Virus record (IMG/VR): IMGVR_UViG_3300033141_002258
Location: 1 to 38,408 of that record
Reading direction: 5' to 3' (one strand)
From: a virus
Length of the DNA stretch: 38,408 nt
The notes beneath the pieces are model-generated. The model was not told the DNA's origin, ran no database searches, and saw only the letters and a list, made by a program, of their open reading frames with translations. The first letter of the stretch is position 1. Each line of letters starts with the position of its first letter. Position numbers and translations under genes: made by a program. Shown in pieces: positions 416 to 38,408 of this stretch.

Positions 416-419
416 AAAG

Positions 420-428
420 TTATCCACA
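420..428 (+). promoter_or_regulatory. DnaA box (TTATCCACA), copy 1
   Basis: A perfect match to the bacterial DnaA box TTATCCACA, 11 nt upstream of the -35 element at 440. It is one of four perfect copies noticed in the window, each next to a strong promoter. Confidence 0.75.
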
Positions 429-439
429 GAAAGGTATGA

Positions 440-468
440 TTGACACGCAGAACGATTTGGTATATATT
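440..468 (+). promoter_or_regulatory. Sigma70-type promoter, rightward
   Basis: TTGACA (440-445), a 17-bp spacer and TATATT (463-468). The predicted start of transcription, about 475, falls on the A of an ATG (AACTAATG), so any translation would be leaderless. It reads into the structured region 475-850. Confidence 0.75.
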
Positions 469-474
469 TAACTA

Positions 475-513
475 ATGGCAAACTTTTATTTCAACAATCT
501 AACTCGTTTCTAA
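475..513 (+). CDS. Possible 12-aa leader peptide
   Basis: The first ATG lies exactly at the predicted transcription start of the promoter at 440-468, and the frame encodes MANFYFNNLTRF then TAA. The start region (AATGGCAAAC, 474-483) is also the 5' half of a stem with GTTTTGCCATT near 526-537, which is followed by a run of T. A ribosome on this peptide would block that stem, as in leader-peptide attenuation. Three of twelve residues are Phe, which may be chance in AT-rich DNA. This is a hypothesis, not a recognised leader. Confidence 0.25.
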   Translation: MANFYFNNLTRF

Positions 514-796
514 TCAGCGGGTTTTTGTTTTGCCATTTTTACAGGTATAAGTTACTTGTGATGCCATTTAATACCAAACACCTGCGAACCTTCTATCTTA
601 TCGGCTTTAAGGTATTAGTTATTACGGGTGTTTTGATAGCTCCGCCAAAGTTATCAAGCGTTCTGGCGTTAAAATACTTGGGGGCGAAAGCTCCATTCGG
701 ATTAAAAGCCGAAACCAAGTGTCCAGAAAAGCCGTCCCTCTGTGGGTATAGGGCAGGGCAGTTCTGCTCGCAGAGGGAAATTGAATAGTTTTTCAC

Positions 797-827
797 AAAA
801 AAAAAGAAGAGTTATTTCTAACTCTTC
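797..827 (-). terminator. Intrinsic terminator of the leftward operon
   Basis: On the minus strand a perfect 9-bp stem (GAAGAGTTA with TAACTCTTC, loop GAAA; 806-827) is followed by nine T residues. It closes the leftward operon that starts near 2352. Confidence 0.85.
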
Positions 828-830
828 GTA

Positions 831-850
831 AAAACCTCATCACAGGTTTT
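831..850 (+). terminator. Possible rightward terminator
   Basis: AAAACCT (831-837) pairs with AGGTTTT (844-850) around a 6-nt loop, and the 3' arm supplies four T residues. It is a weak terminator that could end the RNA starting at 475. A further small hairpin GTTAG/CTAAC follows near 855-870. Confidence 0.35.
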
Positions 851-907
851 ATCGTTAGCACACACTAACTTATCTTTACTATATATTAAGACGGAATATA
901 AGTCAAG

Positions 908-1319: not shown

Positions 1320-1685
1320 TTATTCTTCTTTTTCTAATTCTATTTCTAATTCTATCGCATACTCTTCTTCGGCAAAAGTCCAGTAATCTTCTGTGTTTTT
1401 CATTGTAAAACTGCTATCTCCTAATACGCTATCGTGTAAGTAATCTTTATATTTTTCAATCAAATCGTCTTCATTTTCGGCTTCCCACTTTTTAAAAGCA
1501 AGTTTAGATTCGTCTTCGTTTATGCTTAATTTCGCATCTTTTTCTATATCTCCATCTATTCTAACAATATATTTTGAACCTTTAAAAACTCCCTCTCGTC
1601 CACTCTTTCCATTATGCTCCCATTTAATATAATTATCCATTAAGTATTCTGCTCCGCCATCTGTTTTATGATAATATAATCTCAT
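1320..1685 (-). CDS. Acidic hypothetical protein (121 aa)
   Basis: The 121-residue product is strongly acidic, with many Glu and Asp residues, ending in a Glu-rich tail (ELEIELEKEE). The N-terminal part alternates charged and aromatic residues (YYHKTDGGAEYLMDNYIKWE), suggesting a beta-rich domain. An acidic early phage protein could be a DNA mimic or an inhibitor of a host protein, but no such family is recognised. It is in the leftward operon with the 1768-2040 gene upstream. Confidence 0.6.
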   Translation of the reverse strand: MRLYYHKTDGGAEYLMDNYIKWEHNGKSGREGVFKGSKYIVRIDGDIEKDAKLSINEDESKLAFKKWEAENEDDLIEKYKDYLHDSVLGDSSFTMKNTEDYWTFAEEEYAIELEIELEKEE

Positions 1686-2040: not shown

Positions 2041-2082
2041 ATTTTAAGAACAATCCTTGATATTGTTGTTAGTTTAATTAAA

Positions 2083-2180
2083 AACTCCCGACCTTGAATT
2101 ACCCCTCTGTCCTGTAAAAGTTAGCTATTCTACGGGATAACTAATTCTACAAGCAAAGAGGTAATTAAGAGTAAGGAGTT
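2083..2180 (-). promoter_or_regulatory. Leader structure with T-run: candidate attenuator
   Basis: On the minus strand AACTCC (2180-2175) pairs with GGAGTT (2088-2083), followed by TTTTTAATT. Inside, AATTACC (2166-2160) pairs with GGTAATT (2103-2097), and an inner hairpin TTAGTTAT/ATAGCTAA is possible. The T-run lies 40-odd nt upstream of the gene starting at 2040, so the structure could stop most transcripts. Confidence 0.45.
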
Positions 2181-2290
2181 ATTATCCGGCATTAAAGCGG
2201 GGATAAAAAAAACACCATTACGGAGTTTAAATTACTTATAAGCCGTAGAACTTATTAAATAGATAGCAAAGGGATATTTCAAGGTTCAAG

Positions 2291-2354
2291 ATAGTATTTT
2301 ATCACTTAATCGCTATGATAATTAAATAGATGCGAATATATCTATAAATACTAT
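2291..2354 (-). ncRNA. Three-way-junction 5' leader of the leftward transcript
   Basis: The predicted transcription start (about 2352) coincides with the start of a 9-bp closing stem (ATAGTATTT 2291-2299 with AAATACTAT 2346-2354). It encloses two hairpins: ATAGAT 2326-2331 with ATCTAT 2340-2345, and TATCA 2300-2304 with TGATA 2316-2320. The arrangement is a compact three-way junction at the RNA 5' end. The stems are AU-rich, so chance cannot be excluded. Confidence 0.4.
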
Positions 2355-2358
2355 TTTC

Positions 2359-2386
2359 ATAATAGCAAACCAGCAGAGCTTGTCAA
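2359..2386 (-). promoter_or_regulatory. Sigma70-type promoter, leftward
   Basis: Read leftward: TTGACA (2386-2381), a 16-bp spacer and TATTAT (2364-2359). It drives the leftward operon 2040 to 908. A DnaA box lies 12 bp upstream. Confidence 0.75.
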
Positions 2387-8946: not shown

Positions 8947-9803
8947 GTTTTAATAAGAGTGAAAACAAAATTATAATCACTGGCGGTTCAGGATTTATAG
9001 GAAAACCAACTATCAAAGCCCTTAAAGATAAAGGATATAAAGTTCTTAATTTTGATTTAAAAACAGATAGAGATATTAGAAGTATAAATCAATTAAGAGA
9101 ATATATTGATAAAGGGGACAAGGTTCTTCATTTAGCCGCCATAGCCAGATTTGCCGAAGCAGACGCAGACCCTAAACTGGCATTTGAAACAAACGCCATT
9201 GGAACTAAAAATGTAGCCCAAGTTTGTAAAGAAAAAGAAGCAGAACGATTATGTTATGCTTCAACGGGAAGTGTGTATATGCCTATTTCAGAAGACCCGC
9301 CAATTACAGAAGATTTTAAAAAAAGCGGTAATTCAGTTTATGCCTGTTCTAAATATCTGGGTGAATTATACATTGATGTTCCCCATATTATATTGAGATA
9401 TGCCCATTTATACGGAGTAGGAAAAGTAAAACACGGATTGATAGGCGGATTTTTAGAAAGAATAAATCGTGGATTAGCCCCAATTTTATATAATGGGGTT
9501 CAGAGCAATGATTTCTGCTTTATAGATGATGTGGTTGAGGCAAACATTTTGGCATTAGAAACAGACAATTTAAACGAAACATATAACATTGGAACAGGTG
9601 AAGAATTGAGCGCCAAAAAAGCTGGGGATATTATATGCGAAGTATTCGGTTATAAAGGAGAAGTGGAAAAGAAACTTGGTCGTTCAGTTGATGCCCTTCG
9701 TTTTGTTTACGATACTTCAAAGGCGGAGAAACTTTTAGGATTTAAAGCAAAGTATAATTTTAGAGATGGCTTAATAAAAATGAGAGATGAATTACGAAGC
9801 TAA
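8943..9803 (+). CDS. NAD-dependent nucleotide-sugar epimerase/dehydratase, extended SDR (286 aa)
   Basis: The Rossmann dinucleotide loop GGSGFIG is at about residues 14-20. The family's LHLAA segment (about 60), ASTGSVY (about 105-111) and the catalytic YACSK (about 132-136) follow. The C-terminal substrate domain includes RYAHLYGVGK and the YNIGTGE motif. Such enzymes epimerise or dehydrate UDP-, GDP- or dTDP-sugars in the cytoplasm. The length (286) is near normal for the group. The last 17 bases overlap TerL, so the sugar operon runs directly into the packaging genes. Confidence 0.85.
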   Translation: MSFNKSENKIIITGGSGFIGKPTIKALKDKGYKVLNFDLKTDRDIRSINQLREYIDKGDKVLHLAAIARFAEADADPKLAFETNAIGTKNVAQVCKEKEAERLCYASTGSVYMPISEDPPITEDFKKSGNSVYACSKYLGELYIDVPHIILRYAHLYGVGKVKHGLIGGFLERINRGLAPILYNGVQSNDFCFIDDVVEANILALETDNLNETYNIGTGEELSAKKAGDIICEVFGYKGEVEKKLGRSVDALRFVYDTSKAEKLLGFKAKYNFRDGLIKMRDELRS

Positions 9804-11127
9804 TTTACAAAAGAAAATAAATTGGAGTCCGCATTATCCAAAAGAGCATAAGCCCCAAATAGAGATATTAAAAAGCTGGGAAGAATTAAAGAAATCAGAT
9901 TATAACGAAATGGTTATCTGCGCTGGAACAAGATTTGGTAAAAGCGCTTTATGCGGATATATTATAGTTCAGGAGTTTTGCGATAATATAAATAAGATAC
10001 TTAAAAGAGAGAAAGTAAAGCCAATTCATATTTGGATAGTAGCTCCTTCCTACGAATTAACAAACAAAGTATTTGATTATGTTGAAAGATTTTTCAGTAT
10101 GGCTATGCCTTCATTAACAAAGCATATTTCATATACAGGGAATAGACCCGCTTCAATTAAATTGCCTTTCGGCTGTAAAATTGAATGTAAAACGGGAGAT
10201 GCCCCAGAGGGTATGCTTGGAGAAGAAATTGATTTGGCTATTGTAGATGAGTGTTCAAGATTAAAAAGGCGTATCTGGGAAAGTTATTTATTTCAAAGAT
10301 TAGGAAGCAGAAAAGGGAAAGCTATATTGATTTCTACGCCATTTGGTCGTAATTGGTTTCACGACGAGTGGATTAAAGCCAAAAAAGAGGGATTTGCTTT
10401 TCATTATACAACAAAAGATAACCCTTATTATCCTATTAAAAGCTGGGAAGAAGCAAAAGAAAGATTGCCAGAAGCAGTATTTAAACAGGAACATTTAGCT
10501 TTATTTTTAGATGATGCCGCTTCCGTATTCAGAAACATAGAAGGGATTATTAAAGACGGGACTATCAGAGATGCCGAACCCCACGAAAGATATACAATGG
10601 GAGTGGACTTGGGAAAGCACGAGGACTTTACCGTTATATCTGTTTTAGATAGGCATACCCACGAATTAGTTTATTGGGATAGATTTAATAAAATAGATTA
10701 TACTTTACAGAAAAAGCGAATAATGGCGATAGCGGAAAGATATAACAATGCCAGAGTGTATATTGATAGCACAACTATGGGCGAACCAATTTATGAAGAT
10801 TTGTCAAGAGACGGGGTTTTCATAGACGACTATATTTTTACAAACAAGTCAAAGAAAGATTTAGTGGAAAAATTATCAATATTTATAGAACAGCAAAAAG
10901 TATTTATCAATAATAATATTATTCTTAAAGACGAACTTCAAAGTTTTGGATATAGATTAACAGACGCTGGAAATGTTATTTATTCAGCCCCCGAAGGACT
11001 TCACGACGACGCAGTTTATTCATTAGCCCTTGCTGTTTGGGGACTGGGATATAAAGTCGGGGGAAAGATGACAGCTATTGAAAGAGAATTAAAAAAGCAA
11101 CACAGGAAACCGCAGAGTTTTATATAA
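9787..11127 (+). CDS. terL: Terminase large subunit (446 aa)
   Basis: TerL is the ATPase/nuclease motor that packages DNA into proheads. Visible motifs in order: Walker A AGTRFGKS (46-53), Walker B LAIVDE (150-155), coupling motif ISTPFG (182-187), and the RNase-H-like nuclease with MGVDLGKHEDF (Asp274), VYIDSTTMG (Asp327) and HDDAVYS (406-412). All expected acidic residues are present and the length is normal. It overlaps the epimerase gene, and the conserved small protein at 11130 follows. Confidence 0.95.
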   Translation: MNYEANLQKKINWSPHYPKEHKPQIEILKSWEELKKSDYNEMVICAGTRFGKSALCGYIIVQEFCDNINKILKREKVKPIHIWIVAPSYELTNKVFDYVERFFSMAMPSLTKHISYTGNRPASIKLPFGCKIECKTGDAPEGMLGEEIDLAIVDECSRLKRRIWESYLFQRLGSRKGKAILISTPFGRNWFHDEWIKAKKEGFAFHYTTKDNPYYPIKSWEEAKERLPEAVFKQEHLALFLDDAASVFRNIEGIIKDGTIRDAEPHERYTMGVDLGKHEDFTVISVLDRHTHELVYWDRFNKIDYTLQKKRIMAIAERYNNARVYIDSTTMGEPIYEDLSRDGVFIDDYIFTNKSKKDLVEKLSIFIEQQKVFINNNIILKDELQSFGYRLTDAGNVIYSAPEGLHDDAVYSLALAVWGLGYKVGGKMTAIERELKKQHRKPQSFI

Positions 11128-13903: not shown

Positions 13904-15612
13904 ATGAGCACAAGTATCAACCAGAGTTATCTCGTTCTACATCCGACCATATGGAGTCCAAGAGCTACAATGTATTTCTTGGAAAACTTAAAAGCAGGTT
14001 CTGTATTTGATGACTTCAGTGATTTAGCGGAAGAAGGTGGTAATACAATTCATATCCCAACATTAGCATTGTTCACAAACTCTGCTGTTGGATATAATGA
14101 TGGTGAAGTTGGAGCAACCGCCATCACTGACACGAGAGTTATCTTGAATATTGACCGCTGGATGGCTTCCCCAAGAAGGGTAACCACAGCCAACCAAGCC
14201 CAAATGGCAAGGTCATACCGATTGAAAGATATGTTTGTTAAGGGTCAAGCCGACTCTTTAGCAAGAACATTTGACAGAGAGCTTTTAAGAGCAGGAGAGA
14301 ACTTTACACTCGCAGTCGGAAACTCTACAACCGCTTTGGGACAAACCGTAATTGAGAAAGCTATTATGCTTCTTGCTTCGGCTTCAGTTCCATTGGAAGA
14401 ATGTGTATTTGAAGAAAGAGTACACAATAAATTAGGCTATATGCTGGAAACTCTCGTTAAGTTCTTAGTAGGAGGATTTAATCCCCTAAAAATCTAAGAA
14501 ATAGAGACAATCAGCAGGAAAGATTATTGACAATTAAATATGGGTTGGTAGAATAAGGTAATGCCATATAAAGATAAAGAAAAACAATTACAATATTTTA
14601 AAGATAGATATGTTAGATTAAAAGACAAACTTTCTGATAAAGCAAGGCTTTATTATCTTAAAAATAAAGAAAAGATTAAAGAAAGAAATAAAAATAATTA
14701 CTGGGATAACAGAGAAGAAAAGATATTAAAAGTTAGAAAATACTACTCCAAAAATAAAAAGAAGATAGCAAAGAAGGTATTCCTTTATTATCATCGCATT
14801 ACCAAAAAAAGACTTGAAAATGACCCAGCCTTTAGAATTAAGTTCAGATTGAGAAAAAGAATGTGGTATGCTATTAAACTTTGTAAAACTTCTAAATGTG
14901 AAAAAACACTTGAATTACTTGGATGTAAAGATATAAATGAAGTTAAGAAATATTTAGAGAAAAAGTTTAAAAAAGGTATGAGCTGGGATAACTATGGAAA
15001 ATGGCACATAGACCACATAAAGCCATTATCAAGTTTTAATTTATCAGACCCAAAAGAGCAAAAAATTGCTTTTCATTATAAAAACCTACAACCGCTTTGG
15101 GCGAAAGAAAATCTCCAAAAAGGTGGCAAGGTTTGTCAATAAAATCCTCAGAGACTATACGCCTAAACATTGAAAAATGTATGATATAGTCCGACCTTAT
15201 GGGAGACCATAAGAAGTAGGCAGTAAAAGTCTACGATAACAATAGTGTCTTTATTCATCCAAACGCTTATTGGAAAGAATTAGCCAAAGTAAGCAAGTAT
15301 TACGATGCTTCTATTTATGGCACAAGAGTAGTTTCTAAAGGTGCTAACACCCAAATTTGGGGTATTCCAGTTATTTTGACCGCTATGATTGAAACAGTTG
15401 GAACAACACCTTCATACAGAAACTATCTTGCCCATTATTCAGCATTGGCTTACGCTTTCACAAGTTTGGAAGGAGTTAAAGGAATAAGCATTGTAGAAAA
15501 GGACAGCGAAATGTTGAGAAAGACAATTTATGCCCAAATAATGTATGGCGTAAAGTGTGTCAGACCAGGAGCTGGTGTAAAGATTTATTCCCGTGTGAAC
15601 GAAAGCGGATAG
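13904..15612 (+). CDS. Major capsid protein, split by a group I intron (join 13904..14408, 15248..15612; 289 aa)
   Basis: Exon 1 encodes the N-terminal part (STSINQSYLVLHPTIWSPRA through ASVPLEECV) and exon 2 the remainder (FIHPNAYWKELAKVSKYYD to NESG). Joining at 14408/15248 gives the continuous sequence PLEECVFFIHPNAYWKEL, which fits the capsid-fold pattern of a short turn before the hP-x-x-Y helix. Without splicing, exon 1 reads into the intron and stops at 14497. The splice sites are fixed by P1 and P10 pairing described for the intron. The 290 codons give an HK97-type capsid size. Scaffold lies upstream and the intron-borne HNH gene inside. Confidence 0.85.
14409..15247 (+). mobile_element. 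Group I intron in the capsid gene (839 nt)
   Basis: P1: exon UGUGUAU (14402-14408) pairs with GUACACA (14420-14426), with the required U-G wobble at the 5' splice site after U14408. P10: AAAGA (14415-14419) pairs with UCUUU (15248-15252) at the start of exon 2; the intron ends in G (15247). Core: AATCAGCAGGAAAG near 14510-14523, then P7 GACTATA (15153-15159) with TATAGTC (15185-15191), P8 ACATT-GAAA-AATGT (15167-15180), P9 CTTATGG-GAGA-CCATAAG (15196-15213) and a further GTAGGC/GTCTAC hairpin. The conserved CAGAGACTA and ATAGTCC strings match bacteriophage group I introns. Confidence 0.9.
14561..15142 (+). CDS. HNH homing endonuclease within the intron (193 aa)
   Basis: The C-terminal part contains GKWHIDHIKPLSSF (HIDHI at about 149-153) and HYKNLQPLWAKENLQKG (Asn at 175 and 184), the HNH nuclease of phage intron and free-standing homing enzymes. 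The N-terminal half is a long basic, Tyr- and Lys-rich helical region (residues 1-105) that probably binds DNA. AAGG lies two bases before the ATG. The gene occupies the intron between the early core strands and P7. It would cut intronless capsid genes of related phages and so spread the intron. Confidence 0.9.
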   Translation: MPYKDKEKQLQYFKDRYVRLKDKLSDKARLYYLKNKEKIKERNKNNYWDNREEKILKVRKYYSKNKKKIAKKVFLYYHRITKKRLENDPAFRIKFRLRKRMWYAIKLCKTSKCEKTLELLGCKDINEVKKYLEKKFKKGMSWDNYGKWHIDHIKPLSSFNLSDPKEQKIAFHYKNLQPLWAKENLQKGGKVCQ

Positions 15613-27720: not shown

Positions 27721-27915
27721 CCACCGAATAGTTAGTTGAAAATAGTTAGTTAATAGTTTTTAATGGAAAATCTTTAGATTTTCTATATATATACTCTTAG
27801 TATATATATATTACTTAGTATTGTTATATACCTTAGTATTGTTAGTTGGACTATTAGACCACTACCCCCCCGACTAATAGACCACTACCCGTAGTGGACT
27901 ATTAGACCACTACCC
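27721..27915. other. Candidate replication origin: iterons and AT-rich region
   Basis: Right after the HTH initiator gene come three iteron-like 18-mers (ACTATTAGACCACTACCC at 27850-27867 and 27898-27915, with one change, ACTAATAG, at 27873-27890) and a palindrome CCACTAC-cc-GTAGTGG (27882-27897). Next to them lie CTTAGTATTGTTA twice (27814-27826, 27832-27844), a 12-bp AT palindrome (27784-27795 with 27799-27810), a GAAAATCT/AGATTTTC hairpin (27766-27783) and AATAGTTAGTT twice (27727-27737, 27741-27751). Iterons, an AT-rich stretch and an initiator gene side by side match plasmid-like theta origins. Confidence 0.65.
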
Positions 27916-28310
27916 TATGGTTTGACGGGAAAAGATTTAATAGATTTATAGTTCTTGCCCTGATTAGACCAATTTTTTACTGGCAACCATTTTTCTTTAG
28001 GTAAGAGGGTATAAACATTACTTCCCCGACCCTTACTCGTTCTGGTTCTTATTTCAACTTTAACAATATTATACTTTTTTAGCTTCTCTACCCCTCTACT
28101 TACTGATTTTTCACTAATTCCTAATTCAGTTGCCAAATGTTTAAGAGAAGGAAAGCACTTGCCCTCTTTTTCGTGGCGACACAAAGCGTGATAAACTACT
28201 TGACCTTGCCAACCAACATATTTAGCATATCCGTTTAAAAACTCTTTATCAGACCAATAAAAATTAGTAGTTCGTTTATCTATTATTCTAATCAACTGCT
28301 CTTGTTTCAT
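27915..28310 (-). CDS. Replication-initiator-like HTH protein (131 aa)
   Basis: The central region HALCRHEKEGKCFPSLKHLATELGISEKSVSRGVEKLKKYNIVKVE is the HTH_36 winged-helix pattern found in phage and plasmid replication initiators and in DnaD-like helicase loaders. Residues before it (NFYWSDKEFLNGYAKYVGWQGQVVYH) are typical of such proteins' N-terminal segment. The chosen start is ATG at 28310; an upstream TTG lies within a stem-loop. The gene follows a DnaA-box promoter and its last bases touch the iterons, so binding of the iterons is the obvious role. A transcription regulator is the alternative. Confidence 0.7.
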   Translation of the reverse strand: MKQEQLIRIIDKRTTNFYWSDKEFLNGYAKYVGWQGQVVYHALCRHEKEGKCFPSLKHLATELGISEKSVSRGVEKLKKYNIVKVEIRTRTSKGRGSNVYTLLPKEKWLPVKNWSNQGKNYKSIKSFPVKP

Positions 28311-28318
28311 ATAATTAA

Positions 28319-28371
28319 AACCCGCCCTCTTCTCCAAAGGCGGGTTAAAAAACTAACACTATAGAGAAGAG
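28319..28371 (-). promoter_or_regulatory. Leader with crossing stems before the initiator gene
   Basis: On the minus strand CTCTTCTC (28371-28364) pairs with GAGAAGAG (28334-28327), and AACCCGCC (28346-28339) with GGCGGGTT (28326-28319), followed by TTTT and then the ATG. The segments are ordered 1-2-1'-2', with 1' touching 2', so both stems cannot easily form together. This is the layout of a terminator/antiterminator or translational switch. Confidence 0.55.
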
Positions 28372-31857: not shown

Positions 31858-31948
31858 TTATAGGAATATGAAAATCCTTGTGGTATCTTAATAGATAGTA
31901 TTAAAACATTAAGGTATTAACGCTTCCAAAGGCAGAAATGCCAACAAA

Positions 31949-32016
31949 GGAAGGGGACGAATGAAAAAAAACAGCACATAGTGCATTTAATATAACGCAT
32001 TCGTCTCCTTCCCCCT
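31949..32016 (+). terminator. Strong terminator before the endolysin gene
   Basis: GGAAGGGGACGAATG (31949-31963) pairs with CATTCGTCTCCTTCC (31998-32012), 15 bp with one G-U, followed by CCCTTTTAATT. The 34-nt loop holds a small GCAC/GTGC hairpin. It ends the fibre/holin transcript or attenuates entry into the endolysin gene, which starts about eight bases later. The rest of the gap 31858-31948 shows nothing further. Confidence 0.75.
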
Positions 32017-33054: not shown

Positions 33055-33058
33055 AATC

Positions 33059-33067
33059 TGTGGATAA
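33059..33067 (-). promoter_or_regulatory. DnaA box, copy 4
   Basis: TGTGGATAA, a perfect DnaA box on the minus strand. It lies 21 bp upstream of the -35 at 33089. Unlike copies 1-3 its orientation is opposite to the promoter. Confidence 0.7.
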
Positions 33068-33088
33068 ATACCCTATTTTAAGCAAGAT

Positions 33089-33116
33089 TTGACAAGCCCT
33101 GTGAGTTTTATATAAT
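33089..33116 (+). promoter_or_regulatory. Consensus sigma70 promoter, rightward early operon
   Basis: TTGACA (33089-33094), a 16-bp spacer and TATAAT (33111-33116): both hexamers are perfect. Transcription would start near 33123 and read through the structured leader into the early genes. Confidence 0.85.
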
Positions 33117-33122
33117 AGAGAT

Positions 33123-33228
33123 AGTAAAACAGACTTCGGGGTCGGAAAACTAACGGGGAAATACAAAGAGCGTTCCGACACCACCTTGCTTCGGCAGGGT
33201 GTCCCCGTTAGGACGCTCTTTGTGTTTT
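33123..33228 (+). promoter_or_regulatory. Structured leader with crossing stems and T-run
   Basis: CTAACGGGGA (33150-33159) pairs perfectly with TCCCCGTTAG (33202-33211), and ACAAAGAGCGT (33163-33173) with ACGCTCTTTGT (33213-33223), followed by GTTTT; the two stems cross (order 1-2-1'-2') and 1' touches 2'. GTCGGAA (33141-33147) can also pair with TTCCGAC (33173-33179). A GC-UUCG-GC hairpin inside GACACC/GGTGTC (33177-33203) sits between. One fold ends in a terminator-like hairpin and the other prevents it. Confidence 0.6.
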
Positions 33229-33503: not shown

Positions 33504-33695
33504 GCTATATCCCCTTGACTACGGGGTTTATACCCCAAAGTAGGGGTAAAGTACCTCTTTGACCTGTGCGGTCTATAATCCCCTTAAAAATAATAAAACT
33601 GACAATATGGGGCGGAACAGATACAAGGAATAAATTGGGTTCTCCAAGGACACCGAGATATTCAAGCAAGTTCGCTGCTTGCCCGCCCCTAAAAA
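33504..33695 (+). ncRNA. Structured gene-free stretch between early genes
   Basis: No gene is seen in this 197-nt gap. It holds short G/C hairpins in sequence: AAGGG with CCCTT near 33500-33515, GGGG-TTTATA-CCCC near 33524-33537, and GGTA/TACC near 33544-33554. Then comes an 81-nt unit closed by GGGGCGG (33609-33615) with CCGCCCC (33683-33689), containing TTGG/CCAA and CAAGCA (33663-33668) with TGCTTG (33676-33681). No T-run follows. It ends nine bases before the next ATG, so it may be a leader that controls the 59-aa gene. Confidence 0.4.
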
Positions 33696-35907: not shown

Positions 35908-36056
35908 AATTGTTCTTTTTTGGGGGGATTAAATAAGCTGTCAGCAATTTCTCCACTATTACATAGGAGTATGGTTCTACACTTAACCCCTGATTGATAG
36001 CAGGGATACTATCAAGCCAAATGAATTGTCCTTATTGTCCCCCAAAAGAGAATAAT
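35908..36056 (+). ncRNA. Structured RNA element with an H-type pseudoknot
   Basis: The gap 35834-36076 has no gene. It is closed by a long stem: CTTTTTTGGGGG (35915-35926) with CCCCCAAAAGAG (36039-36050), extended by several A-U pairs. Inside lies a classic H-type pseudoknot: CCCTG (35988-35992) with CAGGG (36001-36005) and TTGATAG (35994-36000) with CTATCAA (36009-36015); loops are A, none and ATA. CTCC/GGAG makes a further hairpin (35951-35968). It sits 21 nt upstream of the next gene and could be a riboswitch-like or trans-acting RNA. Confidence 0.6.
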
Positions 36057-38029: not shown

Positions 38030-38359
38030 AAAACAAAACTATTAAAACAGATAAAGAGGTAATGGCGGCTTTCAGAAAAATATATTATGATAAAAATACC
38101 CCCAGTGGATTAAATCAAAAATATCCATATTTTATAAAAATGGTAGAGGATATACAAAACTTTATTTTAGAAGTCCGAGCCAATGATAAAAAAGCTATAA
38201 AAAGCTATAGGAGAATTATTAGATAGATTAAAAAACACAACCAGCTATGAGGGAGATAAAAATGTTCCATACACAGATGGTTATGCTAATGGATACAATT
38301 CGGCTACCAAAGAAAACAATCTTAAAATAGATAAACTAATTAAAGAACTAATGATATGA
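38026..38359 (+). pseudogene. Early gene shifted by a 10-bp tandem duplication
   Basis: As written the frame stops at 38226. A 10-bp unit, AAAAAGCTAT, is repeated in tandem at 38189-38198 and 38199-38208. Removing one copy restores a single frame of 107 residues from 38026 to TGA 38357-38359: the sequence then runs DKKAIGELLDRLKN, then YTDGYANGYNSATKENNLKI, ending KELMI. The shifted 3' part (38208-38359 and its copy at 1-65) has no start codon of its own. The duplication is either an error in this assembly or a real inactivating or phase-variable mutation. Function is unknown. Confidence 0.65.
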
Positions 38360-38408
38360 TAAAGGTCGGCAAACTTAATAATCTTATTTCAGATTATGAT
38401 TGTAAGTA
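38295..38408. repeat. Terminal direct repeat, right copy
   Basis: Identical to bases 1-114; it marks the overlap of the circular assembly. The frame of the 38026 gene runs through it and ends at 38359. Confidence 0.95.

Follow-up and report, generated by a model that had tools for sequence, protein, structure and literature searches.

The window, the 38,408-nt stretch of DNA analysed here over its full length, represents a complete phage genome. Its first 114 bases (1-114) are identical to bases 38295-38408, and because these ends recur, the genome closes as a circle of about 38,294 bp (38.3 kb). The source is a tailed phage whose products include a large terminase (TerL), a head-tail adaptor-like protein, glycan-modifying enzymes, tail-fibre-like proteins, an M23 peptidase and an HTH protein resembling replication initiators, the gene for which is referred to below as the initiator-like gene. 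Relatives of its TerL reach at most 55% identity, and a terL search of genome contigs returned neither a close relative nor a host. ARAGORN predicted no tRNA and no tmRNA in the genome. The region of interest holds a candidate structured RNA, designated RNA0, and a leftward, convergent early operon that fills the ~1.7 kb between RNA0 and terS:

419-429, plus strand: GTTATCCACAG, the extended form of a perfect DnaA box (box 420-428), 10 bp upstream of the -35 element
440-468, plus strand: sigma-70-type promoter, TTGACA-N17-TATATT, matching the consensus at 11 of 12 positions
475-793, plus strand: RNA0, with a predicted start at 475 and an end at about 787-793, delimited by the fold and the promoter position
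797-827, minus strand: intrinsic terminator of the convergent leftward transcripts (stem 827-806, then T9)
2510, plus strand: start of terS, the first likely plus-strand gene downstream of RNA0
9787-11127: gene for TerL
27915-28337, leftward: initiator-like gene

Two further observations concern other genes. The first 55 residues encoded by a leftward gene at 1320-1685 (minus strand) are 55-78% identical to proteins of otherwise unrelated phages (L261-L264), which is not true of the remainder; the N-terminal part of this product is perhaps a mobile module. Directly past the end of the initiator-like gene, a 21-bp repeat, TGGACTATTAGACCACTACCC, occurs in three copies about 24 bp apart (27847-27915), and these are possible iterons or a possible origin.

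Predicted fold of RNA0

An initial annotation, made from the sequence, had described positions 475-850 as a multi-helix non-coding RNA. The plus strand of this region folds at -118.5 kcal/mol (z -6.5), with 0 of 100 shuffles equally stable, while the minus strand reaches a z of only -1.7. For 475-787 on the plus strand, the minimum free energy is -102.3 kcal/mol (z -5.3) and none of 200 shuffles was as stable; none was as well-defined either, the mean base-pair distance being 16.3 against 75±18 in the shuffles. RNA0 is matched in stability or definition by none of 248 other genome windows of the same length, and in a fold scan of the whole genome using 120-nt windows, the piece at 721 (plus strand) ranks first among all 958. 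Stem pairs mostly have probabilities above 0.9. G-U pairs make up 15 of the 103 pairs, in keeping with the strand asymmetry, and the GC content of the region is 0.42, compared to 0.34 for the genome. The predicted architecture is as follows (all on the plus strand):

475-536: 5' domain of 62 nt, with stem 475-481/530-536 around stem 494-497/525-528 and hairpin 501-523
539-561: hairpin, pair probabilities 0.84-1.0
566-786: 3' domain of four helical arms, closed by 566-572/780-786 (closing pairs 0.79-0.94)
577-632: arm 1, stem 577-584/625-632 with inner hairpin 594-614
634-656: arm 2, a hairpin with loop CCGCCAA
658-732: arm 3, a stem leading to a three-way junction (674-722) with a GAAA-loop hairpin (681-694) and a second hairpin (696-713)
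735-778: arm 4, a GC-rich long hairpin forming a stem within a stem, pairs mostly 1.0

The nested plus-strand helices of the initial annotation are therefore borne out, as is its statement that G-U pairs favour this strand. The three-way junction with a GAAA loop that it placed at 676-720 and the stem within a stem that it placed at 736-777 are both present, at the slightly wider limits given above. As far as folding models go, we regard this striking predicted RNA structure as real, bearing in mind that folding energy alone is no proof of a functional RNA. Hairpin 501-523, together with TTTGTTTTGC, can also be read as a terminator-like site just inside RNA0, at which part or all of the transcription might stop.

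The start of RNA0 is predicted at about 475 because the promoter ends at 468, which places this base seven positions past the -10 element. The first paired base of the fold coincides with the predicted start, a single-base fit. At the other end, a U5 stretch (789-793) directly follows the helix that closes the 3' domain at 786, and no canonical strong terminator was found at the 3' end of RNA0. The extent to 850 that was originally proposed is wrong, since the terminator at 797-827 acts on the opposite strand; RNA0 is predicted to end at about 787-793. A second small RNA is possible opposite the region just beyond this end:

797-872, minus strand: possible 76-nt RNA with three hairpins and a good terminator (z -4.7), behind a promoter-like site at 906-878 (10 of 12 matches)

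Promoter-like sites in the region are no more numerous than expected by chance, which bears on the site at 906-878.

DnaA boxes and promoters

The strong promoter with an upstream DnaA box, claimed from the start for this RNA, was confirmed and is among the genome's six best; this consensus match is what suggests that RNA0 is transcribed. The sequence TTATCCACA occurs at four sites in the genome, each beside a promoter with at least 11 of 12 matches, and these promoters are the genome's strongest:

420, plus strand: upstream of RNA0 (box-promoter region 419-468)
2407, minus strand: second DnaA-box promoter, upstream of the leftward early operon (box 2407-2399, TTGACA at 2386, TATTAT ending at 2359; promoter and leader together 2041-2407)
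28437, minus strand: upstream of the initiator-like gene (28437-28389)
33089, reversed orientation: at a leader (33058-33116)

At three of the four boxes, namely those of RNA0, the leftward operon and the initiator-like gene, GTTATCCACAG ends 10-11 bp before TTGACA. The RNA0 promoter is one of these, with its perfect DnaA box at the constant spacing from the -35 element, and is a predicted site of DnaA binding.

The leader of the leftward operon (2041-2359, minus strand) contains a very long imperfect hairpin at about 2183-2080. Long hairpins, several of them with a T run, stand shortly before gene starts here and at 31921-32010, 33115-33225, 33601-33690 and 35920-36048 (all plus strand), and similar hairpin leaders occur in relatives (L275, L303, L314, L319 and L375). 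These leaders could represent a lineage-wide scheme of attenuation or leader processing.

A pattern combining box, spacing and promoter was searched against IMG/VR and returned 18 loci, among which were the best syntenic relatives seen to that point (L220 and L209); a looser form of the pattern added L302 and L314. The box-promoter geometry recurs in other phages, and the pattern alone recovered the relatives with the greatest synteny. In the records of L302 and L314 (designated L371 and L374, respectively), the box lies between divergent promoters leading to terS and to the leftward operon, so that a consensus terS promoter shares the DnaA box:

L371, 15142-15227: divergent box-promoter region, terS promoter at 15199-15227
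L374, 7384-7486: divergent box-promoter region, terS promoter at 7412-7384

No consensus promoter was found before terS in the window, where only a leftward one is recognisable; the sole strong rightward promoter upstream of terS is that at 440-468.

Searches for homologues and known families

Rfam 15, which includes GOLLD, ROOL, OLE, 6S, tmRNA, RNase P, SRP and group I intron families, gave no match to RNA0 at the gathering threshold, in agreement with the initial view that it matches no common RNA class. At a permissive threshold, the best match on the plus strand of 400-900 had an E-value of 4, and nothing credible was seen. A blastn search of GenBank phage and plasmid records with RNA0 returned no match, and DNA-pattern searches of IMG/VR returned no homologue. 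Exact matches to the GAAA-hairpin pattern were only generic terminator-like hairpins and coding sequence, and none of 11 matches to a core pattern (CTGG...TAAAA/CCAGAAAAGC) had the RNA0 fold.

A covariance model (R1) was built from the single RNA0 sequence. It found no homologue in 73 other virus records, each searched over its full length, or in the promoter loci. The terL relatives among these records are at most 55% identical to the phage's TerL, a distance at which a model built from one sequence has little power. With filters off, its best E-value in the two best syntenic relatives was about 0.9. One weak match in L261 (11.8 bits, E 0.014) was set aside, as it covered the 5' domain only and was not syntenic. 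With no homologue found for a covariation analysis, the fold is a single-sequence prediction, and homologues may exist in distant relatives. Within the phage genome, the longest complementarity that could mark an antisense target was 13 bases, the same as in shuffles.

In L374, a structured stretch at 9150-9345, where the early operon ends, has a promoter (9155-9184), a palindrome over this promoter and a terminator. It is a possible positional analogue of RNA0, unrelated in sequence.

Coding potential

One open frame lies inside RNA0 and spans most of the 3' domain:

561-788, plus strand: ATG open frame of 75 codons, with codon use that is not gene-like

The initial annotation saw no plausible gene here. 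An ATG frame does exist, and one this long on the plus strand arose in 25 of 3000 shuffles, making it moderately unlikely by chance; what stands is that its codon use is unlike that of the phage's genes and that searches of Pfam, PHROGs and phage genomes gave no match to its product. Its codon score is -0.12, against 0.18±0.06 for phage genes (lowest 0.03) and -0.28±0.11 for spurious frames. This places it 4.9 standard deviations under the gene mean, below the lowest gene and nearer the spurious frames. Third-position GC is ~0.49 (for the longer frame 525-788) versus 0.29 in genes. The N-terminal half of the product is hydrophobic. We judge the frame to be probably non-coding, with a small measure of doubt.

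Discussion

The best-supported reading of this locus is a free-standing RNA behind a DnaA-box promoter, a reading partly supported by folding, promoter position, gene layout and the lack of a coding signal. The predicted fold, its strand preference, the single-base fit to the promoter, the arrangement of the genes and the absence of coding-like codon use are all observed. Its own promoter, the convergent terminator at the end of the neighbouring operon and the 1.7 kb downstream without a likely gene on its strand give RNA0 the appearance of a separate RNA gene. For the same layout, an mRNA leader or riboswitch is not indicated: no likely same-strand gene lies directly downstream, the next being at 2510 with the leftward operon between.

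We infer transcription, the transcript ends, action in trans and protein binding as follows. Host RNA polymerase would initiate at about base 475 from the consensus promoter that carries the DnaA box. Since this promoter shares its box with the initiator-like gene and the leftward early operon, expression would probably be early and tied to the replication state, and the shared signature suggests co-expression of RNA0 with the initiator-like gene. The transcript would fold into the 62-nt 5' domain, the hairpin and the closed four-arm 3' domain, and would stop just before the convergent terminator at 797-827. Action in trans is most likely because no likely same-strand gene follows for 1.7 kb, and RNA0 may serve as a stable scaffold or decoy for a host or phage protein. 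Such a role fits better than that of an antisense regulator, given the compact multi-arm fold, the exposed loops and the lack of long complementarity to phage transcripts. Taken as a whole, the reading in which host RNA polymerase makes a free-standing, non-coding structured RNA of about 310-320 nt that works in trans as a protein-binding scaffold or decoy has in our estimation an even chance of being correct. That RNA0 represents a new class of ornate phage RNA, with a DnaA-responsive promoter in common with the initiator-like gene and directed in trans at a host machine or defence in the course of infection, is a tentative idea that we consider doubtful.

Known large, ornate phage and prophage RNAs include GOLLD and ROOL, which like RNA0 as predicted here are phage-encoded, free-standing and many-armed with an obscure function (PMC12286853). 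GOLLD and ROOL form a homo-oligomeric RNA-only cage and often lie near a tRNA island; the genome of RNA0 has no tRNA, and RNA0 itself is a predicted fold of nested helices. Moreover, RNA0 is about 310 nt long, whereas many members of the GOLLD family exceed 800 nt; it has no covariance-model match and, unlike GOLLD and ROOL, is without known homologues. It thus resembles them in kind, not in size or setting, and is not a member of an Rfam family. OLE RNA, of about 600 nt and found mostly in Bacillota (PMC12054373), is likewise highly structured and proposed to bind or sequester protein (PMC12286853, PMC12054373), but RNA0 is shorter and has no Rfam match. Bacterial 6S RNA, tmRNA, RNase P RNA and SRP RNA share only the size range with RNA0, which Rfam and ARAGORN matched to none of them.

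The lambda 6S and late-leader RNAs and the HK022 put RNA are short structured transcripts whose strong phage promoter lies ahead of the late genes. RNA0 could work like lambda pR' 6S or put RNA, as a terminated leader at the head of a long rightward late transcript. Polymerase would pause or end within 475-793 unless modified; once antiterminated, it would continue antisense across the leftward operon to reach terS (2510) and the late genes. We retain this alternative because the window has no recognisable terS promoter and its strong rightward promoter is that of RNA0. It gains from the consensus terS promoters with a DnaA box in L371 and L374, from the terminator-like hairpin at 501-523 and from the frequency of terminator-like hairpins before genes in this phage and its kin. 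However, 1.7 kb of convergent genes separate RNA0 from terS, known leaders have far simpler folds, and no antiterminator gene was recognised among the proteins scanned, which were part of the proteome. A weak promoter before terS is also possible, and relative L274 similarly has no recognised terS promoter. We consider a late leader unlikely, if worth keeping in view. Slightly less probable is that the stretch is a thermodynamic oddity without RNA function, such as a leftover of inserted DNA, and may not be a single transcription unit. The lack of any homologue found and the raised GC content would suit this, but 0 of 200 shuffles, the strand specificity and the single-base fit to a strong promoter with a genome-wide DnaA-box signature argue against it.

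On another reading, 561-788 truly encodes a small 75-residue protein whose N-terminal stretch is hydrophobic, and the RNA structure is secondary. This reading draws on the rarity of such a frame length in shuffles and on that hydrophobic half. The codon score, third-position GC and database searches oppose it, as does a fold that exceeds all else in the genome, genes included, and we hold it to be improbable. Least probable of all is a role at a replication origin, where RNA0 would serve as a primer, as ColE1 RNA II does, or would activate the origin by its transcription, as happens at lambda ori. There is a DnaA box at the promoter, a like promoter precedes the initiator-like gene, and the cumulative GC skew reaches its minimum around 1-3 kb, but the skew follows gene direction, the boxes are single and dispersed with no cluster, no repeat array was reported near RNA0, and the initiator-like gene is ~10.5 kb away around the circle.

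The DnaA-box promoter signature is a usable search key, which by itself retrieved the best relatives of this phage. Phages have yielded few large structured RNAs, most of them of obscure function. If RNA0 is such an RNA, its compact, sharply folded form in a complete, small genome would offer a small, testable system, and the promoter type shared with the initiator-like gene would hint at when such RNAs are needed.
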